Shown here: positions 30,971-36,390 of the stretch, in pieces | How positions within the stretch are numbered: the stretch's first letter is position 1 | Layout: every line of letters begins with the position of its first letter | Assembly: GCA_900199595.1 (NCBI GenBank) | Contig: FZRB01000012.1 | Span: 1 to 64,000, forward strand | DNA length: 64,000 nt | Source of the DNA: Lachnospiraceae bacterium | GTDB taxonomy: Bacteria > Bacillota > Clostridia > Lachnospirales > Lachnospiraceae | Direction: 5' to 3' | Position numbers and translations under genes: made by a program | The notes under the pieces: model-generated | Database searches by the model: none | Told to the model about the DNA's origin: nothing | Seen by the model: only the letters and a program-made list of their open reading frames with translations

Positions 30971-33019
30971 TTACTTATTCATTAAAGCAATCATCTTCTC
31001 AACGTCATATTCTCTGATAACCTGAACACCTTCTGCAACTTCGACTTCCTTATCTGTAACGACTACCTCAGCTTCAGATATATCTGAAACTACTTCAGCC
31101 GCCATCATCTCAAAGAAGGAGTATACATTTATGATGTCAGTAACATGAAAATAATCTGTTATGAAGTCCATTGAGGTTGTACCTGCCACAGCCACTCTGC
31201 TGTCCCTGGCCATGTTCAGCCAGATAAATTCGTTGGTCCAAAGATCCAGACCGAACAGATAAGCAAATGTGCTGTCGCAGTCAATCACAAATGATGACTT
31301 TACTGTCTTAGGTTCATATACCTTTCCACTGTCTTCTATATCCCTGGTCATATAACCGGCCTTACAGAAGCATTTATCAAAGTTCACTCTGGAATATACA
31401 TTATCACAGAATATCATATAATGAACATCCGGATATTCCTTTCTGAACTCATTCATATCTATATCAAAGTATTCTGAACCACCATTATAACCACTTGTTT
31501 CATCACCGGAATATGTGATCGCCGCAGACTGTTTTCCAGCCATGGTTCTCCATGAAAACTCAGTTCTGTTTCCCTTATCATCGATACCGAATACAGAAAG
31601 ATCTATATCGTTGACCTTCTCCCAGTAGGTGAAGGCACGTAGTTTCTTAGTAACCGGCATCTTTATTCTTGAGCCCTTTGTAAGGACACCAAAGCCACTT
31701 TGTGAAGTATTCTCCTGAACCGGAAGTGCATAGTTGACCATATCAGGATCGATATAAACCTTTCCAAGTCTGTCCTTAAGAACTGACTCAAGGTTTTCCC
31801 TGATTCTGGAAGCCAGCATATGTGCCTGTCCCTGTGTTATGACTGACTTCCTCTTTCTCAGCTCTTCGTTAGTTTCAGTATGAACCTTCATTTTATTGTA
31901 TTTAGTGAACTTAAATGTTCTTGGCATAGTACCCTTACTGGTCTGAGAATACTGTATAAGCAGCTGGATCAGAACGATTATATTCTTTGTATCCATGCAA
32001 CTTATGATATATTCCATATCTTCAGTTGATTCACATCTGCTGATGATATAGTTAAGATTTCTAAGCACAGCTGCTGACCCCTTGCCTGTCCTGAGGGCAT
32101 CTACAGCAGCCTTTATATTTTTCTGAGCCATAGCCCTTTCGAAATCGGAATATACAGAAAGATTTTCATCTCCCCTCATAGCATCAAGAAACTTTACTGC
32201 CTCATCAGACTTTGCCTTATAATGGATATGATGAAGCAGACCATTCCAAAGCTTTTTCTTTTCATAGCAGTTTCTTATATCTACTCTGCCACGCATAAAC
32301 ATTCTGTCTATCACTGCTGTGATGAACTTTCTGTCCTGATTCTTAAGATTCAGCTTCTTTATGTTCTTATTATCATATTCACTGTAGTTTATTTCATCTA
32401 CAAGCTTTATAACGTCTGACATTACTATGTAGTCAGAAAATGTAATATCACGCATACTTGTAAGAAGCTTGATAGCTGTATTCTTGGAAGCTATATCCTC
32501 CGGTACAAACTTAAAATCAGCTATATAAGATTTAACCAGCTCAAACTGCTCATCACTGAGAGGTCTTGTACCTGCAAGCAGGTCATTTACAAATTCTCCA
32601 AGAACTGCCTCAGCATCTGCTTCACTTATGATAGAAAAATCCTTTATGTCCGCATTTTCCTTAAAGGCTGTTCTTTCAAACTGCTCCTCAAAGAGGGAAT
32701 GACCGGCCTCGGAGAAATCACCAAAGCCATAGGTAACTGTATAGTGTGCCAGCTGATCAAAGATTAGCTGATCTGTAGTCAGTTCCCTGACAGTCTTTGG
32801 AAAGCCAACATAGAAAGGCTCCGGTACATTTTCGCCCAGACGCTCGGATACAAAACGGATCATATCCTTTGAAATCAACTTTTCTCCCTCAGTTATTCTG
32901 ATATTGAAAAGATTTGCAAGAGCAAACAGAGTCTCAAACTGATTCTCAGTTGTTTCAACATCTGCTTCTCTTACCAAAATATGCTTATTAAATAGATAAT
33001 TTTTGTATATTGTATTCAT
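30971..33019 (-). CDS. Large helical-repeat protein with C-terminal TerD-like domain
   Basis: About 682 aa from the ATG at 33019 behind GAGGAAAT; the upstream in-frame ATG is inside the leader hairpin. Residues 1 to about 420 appear all-helical, possibly HEAT-like (LWNGLLHHIHYK, GSAAVLRNLNYIISR). Residues about 450-640 fit a TerD-like beta-sandwich: NDIDLSVFGIDDKGN, ITYSGDETSGYNGGSEYFDI and VHYMIFCDNVYS, the usual SGDn-G-GD calcium-binding region in altered form. No von Willebrand MIDAS (DxSxS) is seen. The 5' region carries three tandem structured RNAs including a permuted tRNA mimic (33060-33338) and an XRE regulator gene. It may bind these RNAs in a Ro-like way; that is my inference. Confidence 0.7.
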   Translation of the reverse strand: MNTIYKNYLFNKHILVREADVETTENQFETLFALANLFNIRITEGEKLISKDMIRFVSERLGENVPEPFYVGFPKTVRELTTDQLIFDQLAHYTVTYGFGDFSEAGHSLFEEQFERTAFKENADIKDFSIISEADAEAVLGEFVNDLLAGTRPLSDEQFELVKSYIADFKFVPEDIASKNTAIKLLTSMRDITFSDYIVMSDVIKLVDEINYSEYDNKNIKKLNLKNQDRKFITAVIDRMFMRGRVDIRNCYEKKKLWNGLLHHIHYKAKSDEAVKFLDAMRGDENLSVYSDFERAMAQKNIKAAVDALRTGKGSAAVLRNLNYIISRCESTEDMEYIISCMDTKNIIVLIQLLIQYSQTSKGTMPRTFKFTKYNKMKVHTETNEELRKRKSVITQGQAHMLASRIRENLESVLKDRLGKVYIDPDMVNYALPVQENTSQSGFGVLTKGSRIKMPVTKKLRAFTYWEKVNDIDLSVFGIDDKGNRTEFSWRTMAGKQSAAITYSGDETSGYNGGSEYFDIDMNEFRKEYPDVHYMIFCDNVYSRVNFDKCFCKAGYMTRDIEDSGKVYEPKTVKSSFVIDCDSTFAYLFGLDLWTNEFIWLNMARDSRVAVAGTTSMDFITDYFHVTDIINVYSFFEMMAAEVVSDISEAEVVVTDKEVEVAEGVQVIREYDVEKMIALMNK

Positions 33020-33057: not shown

Positions 33058-33059
33058 TA

Positions 33060-33137
33060 TACACTTAATATTTTGTCACTATCATTCAGGAATCGAACCT
33101 GTAAAACCAGTTTGAAGTAAGTGACAATAGCTGTGTA
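33060..33137 (-). ncRNA. Structured RNA unit C (Y-RNA-like, T-arm only)
   Basis: Outer stem TACAC/GTGTA, internal loop AGCTA opposite AATATTAA, then a perfect 8-bp stem TTGTCACT/AGTGACAA. TACTTCA follows, and a tRNA-like T arm CAGG-TTCGATT-CCTG caps the unit. No D arm is present. The plan is shared with units A and B, but the stem sequence is different. Confidence 0.7.
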
Positions 33138-33143
33138 AAAAGC

Positions 33144-33202
33144 GGCGATATTGGTATATTAAACGGATTAACAATCGAATGAAGTAAATATACCTAGCTG
33201 CC
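33144..33202 (-). ncRNA. Structured RNA unit B (reduced)
   Basis: Outer GGC/GCC, internal loop AGCTA opposite AATATC, perfect 8-bp stem GGTATATT/AATATACC, then TACTTCA and TTCGATT in a simple apical loop. Same plan as units A and C without the tRNA-like arms. Confidence 0.65.
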
Positions 33203-33209
33203 ATATTGT

Positions 33210-33338
33210 AATTGACGATATCACCAGATTATTAACGGTGCTCTACCATTGAGCTACAGCCTCTTTCGAAGCTGGCAGGACTCGAACCTGCAACATCCGG
33301 CTCCCTATGCTTGAAGTAAATCTGATTAGCTGTCAATT
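33210..33338 (-). ncRNA. Structured RNA unit A with circularly permuted tRNA-like module
   Basis: Outer stem AATTGAC/GTCAATT, internal loop AGCTA opposite GATATC, 8-bp stem ATCAGATT/AATCTGGT, then TACTTCA. The apical part is a tRNA read in permuted order: T arm GCAGG-TTCGAGT-CCTGC (33291-33275), acceptor strand CAGCTTC (33274-33268), GAAA loop (33267-33264), acceptor strand GAGGCTG (33263-33257). TA and the D arm GCTC-AATGGTA-GAGC (33254-33240) follow. The two acceptor strands pair over 7 bp with one G-U. No anticodon loop is present. This is the plan of bacterial Y RNAs (YrlA). Confidence 0.78.
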
Positions 33339-33352
33339 ATTACCTTAAATCA

Positions 33353-33607
33353 TTATGCGGTCTTACGTATGGCATTATCATCCGTAACAACGATGATCTC
33401 ATCCATTGTTACTCCGAAAACATCTGCAAGCACCACAAGATTGTCTATAGATGGAAGTGCAGTTCCTCTCTGCCACTTGTATATAGCCTGTGGTGTACCA
33501 AATCCAAATATATCCTGCAGATCAGATACTGTAAGGCCTGCTTTCTTACGAAGTACGGCAATGTTTCTGCCTGTACCTGCTGTATCAATTATCGGCATCA
33601 TATTCAT
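33353..33607 (-). CDS. Small XRE-family HTH regulator
   Basis: 84 aa behind GGAGGG. HTH region: IAVLRKKAGLTVSDLQDIFGFGTPQAIYKWQRGTALPSIDNLVVLADVFGVTMDEII. The single domain nearly fills the protein. It ends 15 bp before the first structured RNA unit and is on the same strand, so it probably shares the transcript or controls the locus (XRE - RNA units - TerD-like protein - ylmH). Confidence 0.88.
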   Translation of the reverse strand: MNMMPIIDTAGTGRNIAVLRKKAGLTVSDLQDIFGFGTPQAIYKWQRGTALPSIDNLVVLADVFGVTMDEIIVVTDDNAIRKTA

Positions 33608-34026: not shown

Positions 34027-36390
34027 TTATTTTTTTATACTTTGACGTCTGGCCTTCTTCGCTTCATAAAGACATTTATCTGCCTGACTCGTAAGATCTG
34101 CAACAGAATAGTTTTCTGAACAGACAAATGTAACACATCCTGTTGAGAATTCTACATAATAAGGCTTGTCACATGTTTCATTAAAGCTTCGGCAGCGTTC
34201 TTTCAGCAGCTTTATTATCTTATCAGTATCTGACTCATCCTCGATTATCATAAACGAAACAAATTCATCTCCGCCTATACGTCCACAAACAGTACCTTCA
34301 CTACGAAAATCACTGAAGGTCTCCTTTATTATTTCAGCCGCATTTTTAAGTGCAAAGTCTCCGTCATAATGTCCAAATTCATCATTTATCTCTTTCAAGT
34401 GATCCAGATCAGAGAAAAAGATTGCTGCCAAGGAGCCTAAATGACTATCAACTTCGTTAACCGCATTTTCCATGAATCCACGTCTGTTATAAAGCCCTGT
34501 AAGTGAATCAGTGGTAGAAATAAAGCTAAGTACCCGGTTTTTATCCTTTAGCTCCTTCAACGTATTAAAGAGCTGTTTTTTCGCCTCATTTTCCTGTTCG
34601 CTTATCTGTTTATAAGCCATAGCAGTACTTATCTGAAGCACCGCACCATACAACAGACCAATAGGGGCATCTTCTATCTCACAGAGCATAATACCATACT
34701 GATATTTTTTTGCAAAAAGCAGAAATGCAGCAAAAACATGCTTAGAAGAAGATGGATATCTCTCAACAAAACCACCTTCTTTAGTAATAACAGGACGCTC
34801 ATTATCTTCATATACTTCTATTTTATCATCCCTGTACTCAGCCACCAGACTTAGCATATCAGGGCACTTAAAATCTTCTCTTCTATCACAAATTACAGGT
34901 TCAGGCAAGAGGTACAGATAAGCACTTTTTGCCCCCTGGGAGATTACATCTTCCAAAGCAAGACGATAGAATTCTTTTTCATCATCAGCATGATCGATCA
35001 TATACTTGATAGAGGCAGGAGCTTTCCAGCTATTATTTAACAGCATTGCTATTCTGTCCTCATCACTTCGCATAACAAATGAAGTAATGTAATTATCAGT
35101 TACTTCAAGAACAGATCCGAGTTGAACCAGAATTTCTGAATCTCTTTCTTTTTCCATAAAGAACTGTATTATCTGATGGAATGATCTTAAGAACCCCGAA
35201 AAATCAAGACTTGTCTGTCCGTCCTTTGAACAAAGCTTCTGAATCTGAATCAAAGCGTTCTCAGGCAGCATCCTGCTATCATAATCCACTTTCTTTTCGG
35301 TAAGACACTTAAGATTATAGACCAAGAATTCAAAGTATTCTTTTCCGTTTTCCCGTGAAGCATCTAAAGCTATACTCTCATAGGAATCTGCTGCAGCCAT
35401 AGATGCTACATTTTTTATAAGTTCTGTGTCTTTGGAATCATTTATTTTATCCAGCAGATCTGAAAGCTCCAGTTCTTCTTTTCCAGGATGAGTATTACAT
35501 CCACAAGACTGACGTTTTAAGAACTTAGCCGGGAGCTTTATTTTAACAGGCTTTGCTTCTTTACAAAGTGAGACAGCATATTTTAATGCCTGATATCCCA
35601 TATCCAGACCGTCCTGATTGGCCGTGGTAAGGGGCGGATCCATTCGCTGTGCAAATTCAACATCGTCATAGCCTGTTACTGCTATATCTCTTCCTGGAGT
35701 CAGACCTCTCTGATAGCACACCTTGTAAATGCTCATAGCCATCTCATCATTAGCTGACACTATTGCTTCAGCTTCAGGATGGGAATTAAGGAGTTTTTCA
35801 ACCATATCATCTACTTTCGAAGAATAATCGCCATACTCCACCATATCGTCAGTCACAGTAAGACCATGAGCCTTCATCGCCTCACGGTAAGCCCGTTCTC
35901 TTTCATTTGAATCAGTATTATTCTTAGGACCACTCAGATACAGAATATTTTTATACCCATGATCTGAAAGAAGATGCTCCATAATGGTATACATGCTTCC
36001 ATAATTATCGCTGATAATGAAACTGTCACAAGACTCCTCATCATATTCTTCAAGTATTACAAGAGGAACTTTACGGAATTTTGAGGCGAAGGCCTCCCTG
36101 TCATCCTTGTCCAGATAGATACAAAGGGTTCCGTAGGAGATGATCAGAGCATCCAGTCCTGCTATAAGTGAATAATCATAAAGGGAATTATATTGATAAT
36201 TATAGGCGTTAAGGTCATTTTCATCACTCTTCCAAAAATCAAGCGCATTTCCCTGTGCACCTACAAAAAAAGAAATATTGACATTTTCAGATTTAGCCGC
36301 TTCACATATACCTCGTATAAGCTCCATCGGATGCTGGGTATGAACATTTCCAATCATTACCCCTATATGATATACCTTATCCCCGGACAT
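34027..36390 (-). CDS. Periplasmic-binding-protein-like sensor + GGDEF diguanylate cyclase
   Basis: 787 aa, no signal peptide or membrane helix, so cytosolic. Residues about 5-300 form a LacI/RbsB-like ligand-binding domain (YHIGVMIGNVHTQHPMELIRGI, EAIVSANDEMAMSIYKVC, AVTGYDDVEFAQRMDPPLTT) without a DNA-binding helix. A long helical linker with Cys-Gly-Cys (RQSCGCNTH) follows. The C-terminal GGDEF domain has LTGLYNRRGF and the intact RIGGDEFVSF active site. It should make c-di-GMP in response to a small sugar- or nucleoside-like ligand. One of three c-di-GMP proteins in this window. Confidence 0.9.
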   Translation of the reverse strand: MSGDKVYHIGVMIGNVHTQHPMELIRGICEAAKSENVNISFFVGAQGNALDFWKSDENDLNAYNYQYNSLYDYSLIAGLDALIISYGTLCIYLDKDDREAFASKFRKVPLVILEEYDEESCDSFIISDNYGSMYTIMEHLLSDHGYKNILYLSGPKNNTDSNERERAYREAMKAHGLTVTDDMVEYGDYSSKVDDMVEKLLNSHPEAEAIVSANDEMAMSIYKVCYQRGLTPGRDIAVTGYDDVEFAQRMDPPLTTANQDGLDMGYQALKYAVSLCKEAKPVKIKLPAKFLKRQSCGCNTHPGKEELELSDLLDKINDSKDTELIKNVASMAAADSYESIALDASRENGKEYFEFLVYNLKCLTEKKVDYDSRMLPENALIQIQKLCSKDGQTSLDFSGFLRSFHQIIQFFMEKERDSEILVQLGSVLEVTDNYITSFVMRSDEDRIAMLLNNSWKAPASIKYMIDHADDEKEFYRLALEDVISQGAKSAYLYLLPEPVICDRREDFKCPDMLSLVAEYRDDKIEVYEDNERPVITKEGGFVERYPSSSKHVFAAFLLFAKKYQYGIMLCEIEDAPIGLLYGAVLQISTAMAYKQISEQENEAKKQLFNTLKELKDKNRVLSFISTTDSLTGLYNRRGFMENAVNEVDSHLGSLAAIFFSDLDHLKEINDEFGHYDGDFALKNAAEIIKETFSDFRSEGTVCGRIGGDEFVSFMIIEDESDTDKIIKLLKERCRSFNETCDKPYYVEFSTGCVTFVCSENYSVADLTSQADKCLYEAKKARRQSIKK

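Follow-up and report, generated by a model that had tools for sequence, protein, structure and literature searches.

Tandem YrlA-related RNA units with variable heads beside a TerD-domain protein gene in a Lachnospiraceae bacterium

To our knowledge, the experiments done on bacterial Y RNAs deal with Ro/TROVE partners. In the Salmonella rsr-yrlBA-rtcBA RNA repair operon, as outlined in part of PMC7790460, Y RNAs, a Ro-type protein and RtcB lie in one neighbourhood. Here we describe three tandem structured RNA units lying upstream of a gene for a protein with a TerD-fold domain, found in a 64,000-nucleotide stretch of a Lachnospiraceae bacterium genome (the window; contig FZRB01000012.1 of assembly GCA_900199595.1). 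The association between these RNA units and this protein is real and conserved. Judged by covariance-model matches, the units and YrlA RNAs are related and probably share an ancestor.

On the minus strand, read 5' to 3', an XRE-type gene (33353-33607) is followed by the three units (33338-33059) and by an open reading frame (ORF) of 682 codons (30971-33019). The original prediction had placed three minus-strand units here with a common order of motifs and with 8-bp stems of differing sequence; direct reading confirmed the places and the order, and the stems pair fully in all three. The common plan consists of an outer stem, AGCTA, the 8-bp stem, TACTTC, a variable head, the return strand, RATAT(C/T) and the closing outer stem. 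Unit A (33210..33338, on the minus strand like all features of the array) is read as a Y RNA with a permuted tRNA-like module on the basis of its motifs, pairing, covariation, folding and a score of 129.7 bits with R1, a covariance model built solely from 29 long units. Its outer stem is AATTGAC/GTCAATT and its 8-bp stem ATCAGATT/AATCTGGT; the internal loop sets AGCTA (33327..33331, read directly from the sequence) against GATATC, and the TACTTC 3' of the 8-bp stem (33313..33318) is common to the six TROVE-linked Firmicutes YrlAs that were read. The head runs from a T arm (33275..33291) through a 7-bp acceptor-like stem closed by GAAA, whose 3' strand precedes its 5' strand (33257..33274), to a D arm (33240..33254), which is the order of a permuted tRNA. 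Both arms are supported by an Rfam match and by covariation, and the acceptor-like stem by covariation.

Unit B (33139..33207; 8-bp stem GGTATATT/AATATACC) is short, has neither T arm nor D arm, and was recognised by its pairing and by an R1 score of 45.1 bits in the covariance search of the window. The short loop expected in it is present; tentatively, it is better read as a small anticodon-arm-like element, CGATTGTTAATCCG, than as a T loop. Unit C (33059..33140; 8-bp stem TTGTCACT/AGTGACAA) is also short and, as predicted, has a T arm only, as borne out by motif and pairing, though minimum-energy folding leaves this arm unformed; R1 did not match the unit at E ≤ 1. The full permuted tRNA module is thus absent from units B and C. 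Folding recovered the outer stem and the 8-bp stem of every unit, as well as the T stem, 7-bp acceptor and D stem of unit A. As the folding energies alone are unexceptional (z = -2.1, -0.4 and -1.0 for units A, B and C), the case rests on conservation. The Rfam YrlA model matched unit A at 33235-33299 with 44.6 bits (E 1.8e-7), below its gathering score of 69, and this match, together with covariation and folding, bears out the permuted tRNA claimed for the unit. ARAGORN called no tRNA in the window. The string AGCTA-N8-TACTTC occurs six times in the bacterium's own genome, and only the three window copies have the 8-bp stem and the expected tail.

Recurrence was assessed in a species collection in which the protein was matched at 180 places, the best 80 of which were kept; this is not a random sample. 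Addition of the window and of three further loci (L003, L010, L011) gave 84 loci, 76 of them with at least 300 nt upstream; L011 and L078 are one record and are both counted in the 76 and the 84, while L002 was omitted as lying on the same contig as L020. The titles of the best 80 comprise 57 Lachnospiraceae and 2 Chloroflexi, the rest being other Clostridia names. Among family genomes the protein was matched in 4 of 150, and among order genomes in 8 of 392, with the own genome and distant relatives counted. A strict finder located units in 60 of the 76 loci and 109 units across all loci, with 50 different stem sequences. All 109 lie in the 67 kb upstream of the homologous genes with none on the reverse strand, and the pattern was absent from 168 kb of gene sequence (both strands) and from 20 rounds of dinucleotide shuffles. 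With relaxed criteria, 125 units were located in 64 of the 76 loci and 130 in 67 of the full 84, again with none in the controls, so that the expected recurrence of homologous units beside the same gene in other genomes is found. Carriers with units upstream of the gene include the cultured Eubacterium ruminantium (L034) and Eubacterium uniforme ATCC 35992 (L078). Three of the 12 loci without a relaxed-finder unit (L053, L057, L061) hold divergent units by eye; R1 matched L053 at 91.7 bits and did not match L057 or L061.

Pairing is likewise kept in the homologues, with compensatory changes. In the covariation alignment, which holds 29 of the 33 long units (two near-duplicates and the linear-headed L087 and L096 were left out), 96.6% of 985 cells are paired. 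The covariation score of 0.616 compares with 0.225 (sd 0.012) for shuffles and ≤0.13 for slid partners, and both sides have changed in 25 of 34 pairs, including all seven acceptor pairs. Unconstrained RNAalifold on the long units predicted 30 of the 34 pairs.

The comparison with Rfam YrlA that the original prediction called for also came out positive. Pfam TROVE was matched in 9 of 398 genomes of the phylum, and six of these nine loci hold Rfam YrlA-like RNAs (31.6-39.9 bits), which themselves also fall below the gathering score of 69. TACTTC ends the stem in all six; the AGCTA loop was not seen in these six copies. R1 matched end to end (model positions 1-131) at seven of the nine TROVE loci (L098, L099, L101-L105; 57-81 bits), with no full-length match at L097 and L100. 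Given these full-length matches, the common TACTTC and the AGCTA loop not being seen in the TROVE-linked copies, the units are best described as YrlA relatives with a changed internal loop. The permuted module of T arm, acceptor and D arm sits on the stem in unit A and in 28 relatives. An R1 survey of the 392 order genomes, run with stricter filters and eight candidates scored per genome, gave hits at E ≤ 1e-4 in 121, with scores above 90 bits only in three genomes that have a close homologue of the gene; one match of 64 bits (L210) adjoins a Pfam TROVE gene. Tandem tRNA genes can mislead surveys, as they too draw sub-threshold hits from the Rfam YrlA model; a hit of this kind in the own genome (L009:1501-1557) was rejected as a tandem-tRNA artefact.

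The heads of the units vary widely. A permuted tRNA forms the head of 38 of the 130 units, a lone T arm that of 16 and a linear tRNA-like fold that of 2, which leaves 74 with none of these; 34 of the 38 permuted heads belong to the first unit counted within 1000 nt. One locus (L087:4493-5928) has eight units in a row by R1, four at 72-112 bits with permuted heads alternating with four at 20-40 bits; the latter have linear tRNA-like heads by eye, one of them decayed, and ARAGORN calls two of the four. At another (L096), ARAGORN calls a tRNA-Ile(aat) inside a unit. With these permuted and linear heads, one and the same handle bears a tRNA shape in two topologies. In the short units, anticodon-arm-like loops were observed 9 times against 2.6 expected, with a maximum of 8 in 500 mononucleotide shuffles, a weak enrichment from which we tentatively suggest that short units carry such an element. 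Loops such as GACTGTTAATC (window 33187-33153, and some short last units elsewhere) resemble the anticodon arm of tRNA-Asn.

The partner gene (30971..33019, minus strand) encodes 682 amino acids, with a helical N-terminal region tentatively resembling a TROVE ring and a TerD-fold domain at residues ∼443-620. Its start had been put at GTG 33064, which alignment with homologues replaces, most likely, by ATG 33019. The TerD beta-sandwich fold is present in a confident structure model; a first model from five sequences was set aside (pLDDT 69, with a meaningless Foldseek list). In a second-look structural alignment of the good model, Ro/TROVE entries were the only long structural matches shown, while Foldseek with that model returned no match at E ≤ 0.001. 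Going by the model, the helical N-terminal part probably looks like a divergent TROVE ring, although weakly so by sequence. Following the helical region, the position compared with the vWA DxSxS MIDAS reads YIDPDM by eye and is succeeded by TerD; Pfam gave no vWA hit in the window protein. Nor was Pfam TROVE found in the window protein, the own genome or 15 carrier genomes. Single-protein Pfam and PDB sequence searches returned no family, PADLOC nothing for this protein, and a PDB profile search only TerD 2kxt (E 0.64). In NCBIfam, residues 301-623 matched the MXAN_6230/SCO0854 family NF041916 with E 2.4e-25 and 88.9 bits, against a cut-off of 600. The proposal that a TerD protein stands in the place of canonical Ro therefore holds in that Pfam TROVE was not found in the carriers searched, but probably not in the sense of a protein unrelated to Ro, its N-terminus being probably a Ro-like ring. 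At one contig (L004-L006; G092 contig C278) the partner gene appears as three separate pieces, which suggests a decayed copy.

We consider it probable (roughly 0.73) that the units are genes of trans-acting Y RNAs of YrlA ancestry, bound by an adjacent divergent Ro-type ring protein with a TerD domain. The units would then encode small RNAs whose two-part stem (outer stem, AGCTA/RATATC loop, 8-bp helix and TACTTC) may serve as the handle for the adjacent protein, a presumed true relative of Ro. The head may act as a swappable adaptor, which can mimic a tRNA in permuted or in normal order, can consist of just a T arm or a small hairpin, or can be missing altogether. If Ro/Y particles are a guide, RNAs with a tRNA head would cover the ring and recruit tRNA-handling enzymes, such as a nuclease, an RtcB-type ligase or modification enzymes, whereas headless RNAs would form particles without a tRNA adaptor, and TerD could sense a stress ligand. 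The system may function in RNA quality control or repair. With somewhat less confidence, though still on the favourable side, we regard the system as a second Ro/Y ribonucleoprotein lineage of Lachnospiraceae-type bacteria and predicted viruses, having a TROVE-like ring, a TerD sensor in or after the vWA part, and Y RNA arrays with exchangeable heads that present the tRNA shape in two topologies, permuted and linear.

Three other explanations were weighed. The array could consist of tRNA genes in decay or be the remains of a former tRNA cluster, in which the order of tandem tRNAs would give a false permuted tRNA, and the Rfam YrlA model does hit tandem tRNA genes, the rejected own-genome hit sitting among 16 tRNAs. 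However, ARAGORN calls none in the window, and the survey hits read by eye as tandem tRNAs (L213, L214, L216, L217) reach 45-49 bits, whereas unit A and its two counterparts scored 98-130 in that survey. Since the T arm, acceptor and D arm are enclosed in 29 sequences by a closed Y stem that itself covaries, this explanation is already contradicted, and we give it next to no credence. It is unlikely, though much less so, that a YrlA-type RNA was taken over by a protein unrelated to Ro, with the helical N-terminus being an unrelated repeat. The weak sequence signal to TROVE, the lack of a Pfam hit and the lack of a Foldseek match at E ≤ 0.001 would all fit such a takeover, while the confinement of long structural matches to Ro/TROVE, and a comparison of the N-terminal region with TROVE by motif order and shuffle test, favour Ro kinship.

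The units might instead act in cis, as protein-binding sites or attenuators in the 5' untranslated region of the gene that mediate autorepression, with no separate Y RNA. Their placement accords with this: in 37 of the 67 loci with units, 13-36 nt separate the end of the last unit from the start codon, and 35 of the 130 units end in a terminator-like stem and U-run. Nine genomes with the gene but without an upstream unit (9 of 12 such loci) were searched with R1, and the stem finder confirmed a unit in eight. In seven of the nine the unit lies outside the leader, which makes a pure mRNA-leader role unlikely: immediately downstream of the gene and preceded by a -10-like box (L229, L233; followed by a U-run in L233), as a pair of units 2.5 kb upstream with another ORF in between (L230; gene locus L074), or in units sharing no 40-mer with the fetched gene locus (L228, L231, L232, L234), although in these last four contig breaks could hide linkage, most easily in L231, whose gene locus has 522 nt upstream. 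The remaining unit, in L227, sits where the end of its contig overlaps the gene start, and is hence probably an upstream one; it is not counted among the seven. Moreover, covarying tRNA heads would be superfluous in a leader, and a -10-like box precedes each of the eight units of L087 by eye. Across the loci, 36 of 67 first units have a -10-like hexamer that begins 14-27 nt ahead of AGCTA, compared with 13 of 67 when a control distance is used; evidence for promoters within the window is weak, with 8 promoter-like sites over both strands where 4.3 would be expected. We therefore judge the leader explanation improbable, more so than an unrelated partner protein, and retain trans-acting Y RNAs with a Ro-type partner as the favoured reading.

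The original prediction called for a check of synteny with both the XRE and the TerD-like gene; units accompany the latter in 64 of the 76 loci, while XRE proved optional, being found upstream in 8 of 84, where flank lengths differ. The XRE/HTH_3 gene of the window (33353..33607, minus strand) bears a weak likeness to RstR, with a score under the cut-off of that model. The fetched flank includes RtcB in 6 of the 84 loci, and beyond XRE and RtcB no convincing conserved neighbour was seen in the 84, rtcA and rtcR not having been searched by name. Elsewhere in the window (34027-36390), a LacI-type periplasmic-binding domain is fused to GGDEF. Relatives of the protein (38-52% identity) are also carried by nine IMG/VR viral contigs (L236-L244), seven of them distinct, as two pairs, L236/L239 and L242/L243, show no difference across the compared stretch. 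The relaxed finder located units upstream of the gene in six of these seven, with a permuted tRNA head in L236 (R1 75.3 bits), and gave one likely chance hit inside a coding region of L236/L239. A different array occurs at L211:960-1900 and L212:1520-2140, where short hairpins have a conserved ACAGCAAT and some have permuted tRNA heads; its best R1 matches are 63 (L211), 57 (L212) and 49 bits, and in L211 it precedes a DUF2828 plus DUF7788 (vWA-like) protein. This is possibly a third Ro/Y-like system.

The function of the head in bacterial Y RNAs becomes approachable here, as one constant stem bears heads that are permuted, linear or reduced, or bears no head at all, in some cases within one locus; stem and head functions should therefore be separable by simple experiments. 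The TerD link, if true, would join two poorly understood stress systems, and occurrence on contigs predicted to be viral may point to a part played in conflict. No title joining Y RNA with a TerD protein was among the literature matches listed, which does not establish absence from print; PMC7824862, in the portions consulted, mentions TerD, RtcB, TROVE and Y RNA, but handles TerD apart from TROVE and RtcB.

Several described systems bear comparison. In 2016 Burroughs and Aravind reportedly linked RtcB with a tRNA-like RNA and a protein of the SPFH/Band-7 type. A locus of this sort exists in the own genome, with RtcB, a YrlA-like RNA and a Band_7/SPFH gene in a row (L008:121-2962, contig C24), but it is separate from the array, and its R1 match is confined to the tRNA-like part (positions 32-109). 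The RING domain-containing MXAN_6230/SCO0854 family (NF041916) resembles the window protein over residues 301-623, but the latter scores far below the family cut-off; no YrlA hits were found in the fetched stretches of eight loci (five of that family and three of distant relatives of the window protein). The Salmonella rsr-yrlBA-rtcBA operon, as far as the excerpts of PMC7790460 describe it, is alike in its Y RNAs and Ro-type protein and in RtcB, which is sometimes near the present gene; unlike there, RtcB is optional in the present loci and no other repair gene is conspicuous. The closest likeness is to YrlA (RF02553) with Rsr/Ro60 (TROVE, PF05731), which shares the two-part stem, the permuted tRNA module, a gene beside a (here putative) ring-type RNA-binding protein and, in the Firmicutes members read, TACTTC at the stem end. 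The present units differ in their AGCTA/RATATC internal loop, not seen in the six TROVE-linked copies read, and in forming arrays of 1-8 units, many headless or with a T arm only and some with linear tRNA-like heads, while the protein has no Pfam TROVE match and contains a TerD fold. As formal membership fails (Rfam gathering score, Pfam TROVE), we do not file the system as YrlA-Ro; it is nevertheless related to YrlA-Ro in its RNA and probably in its protein, and most likely works like it.
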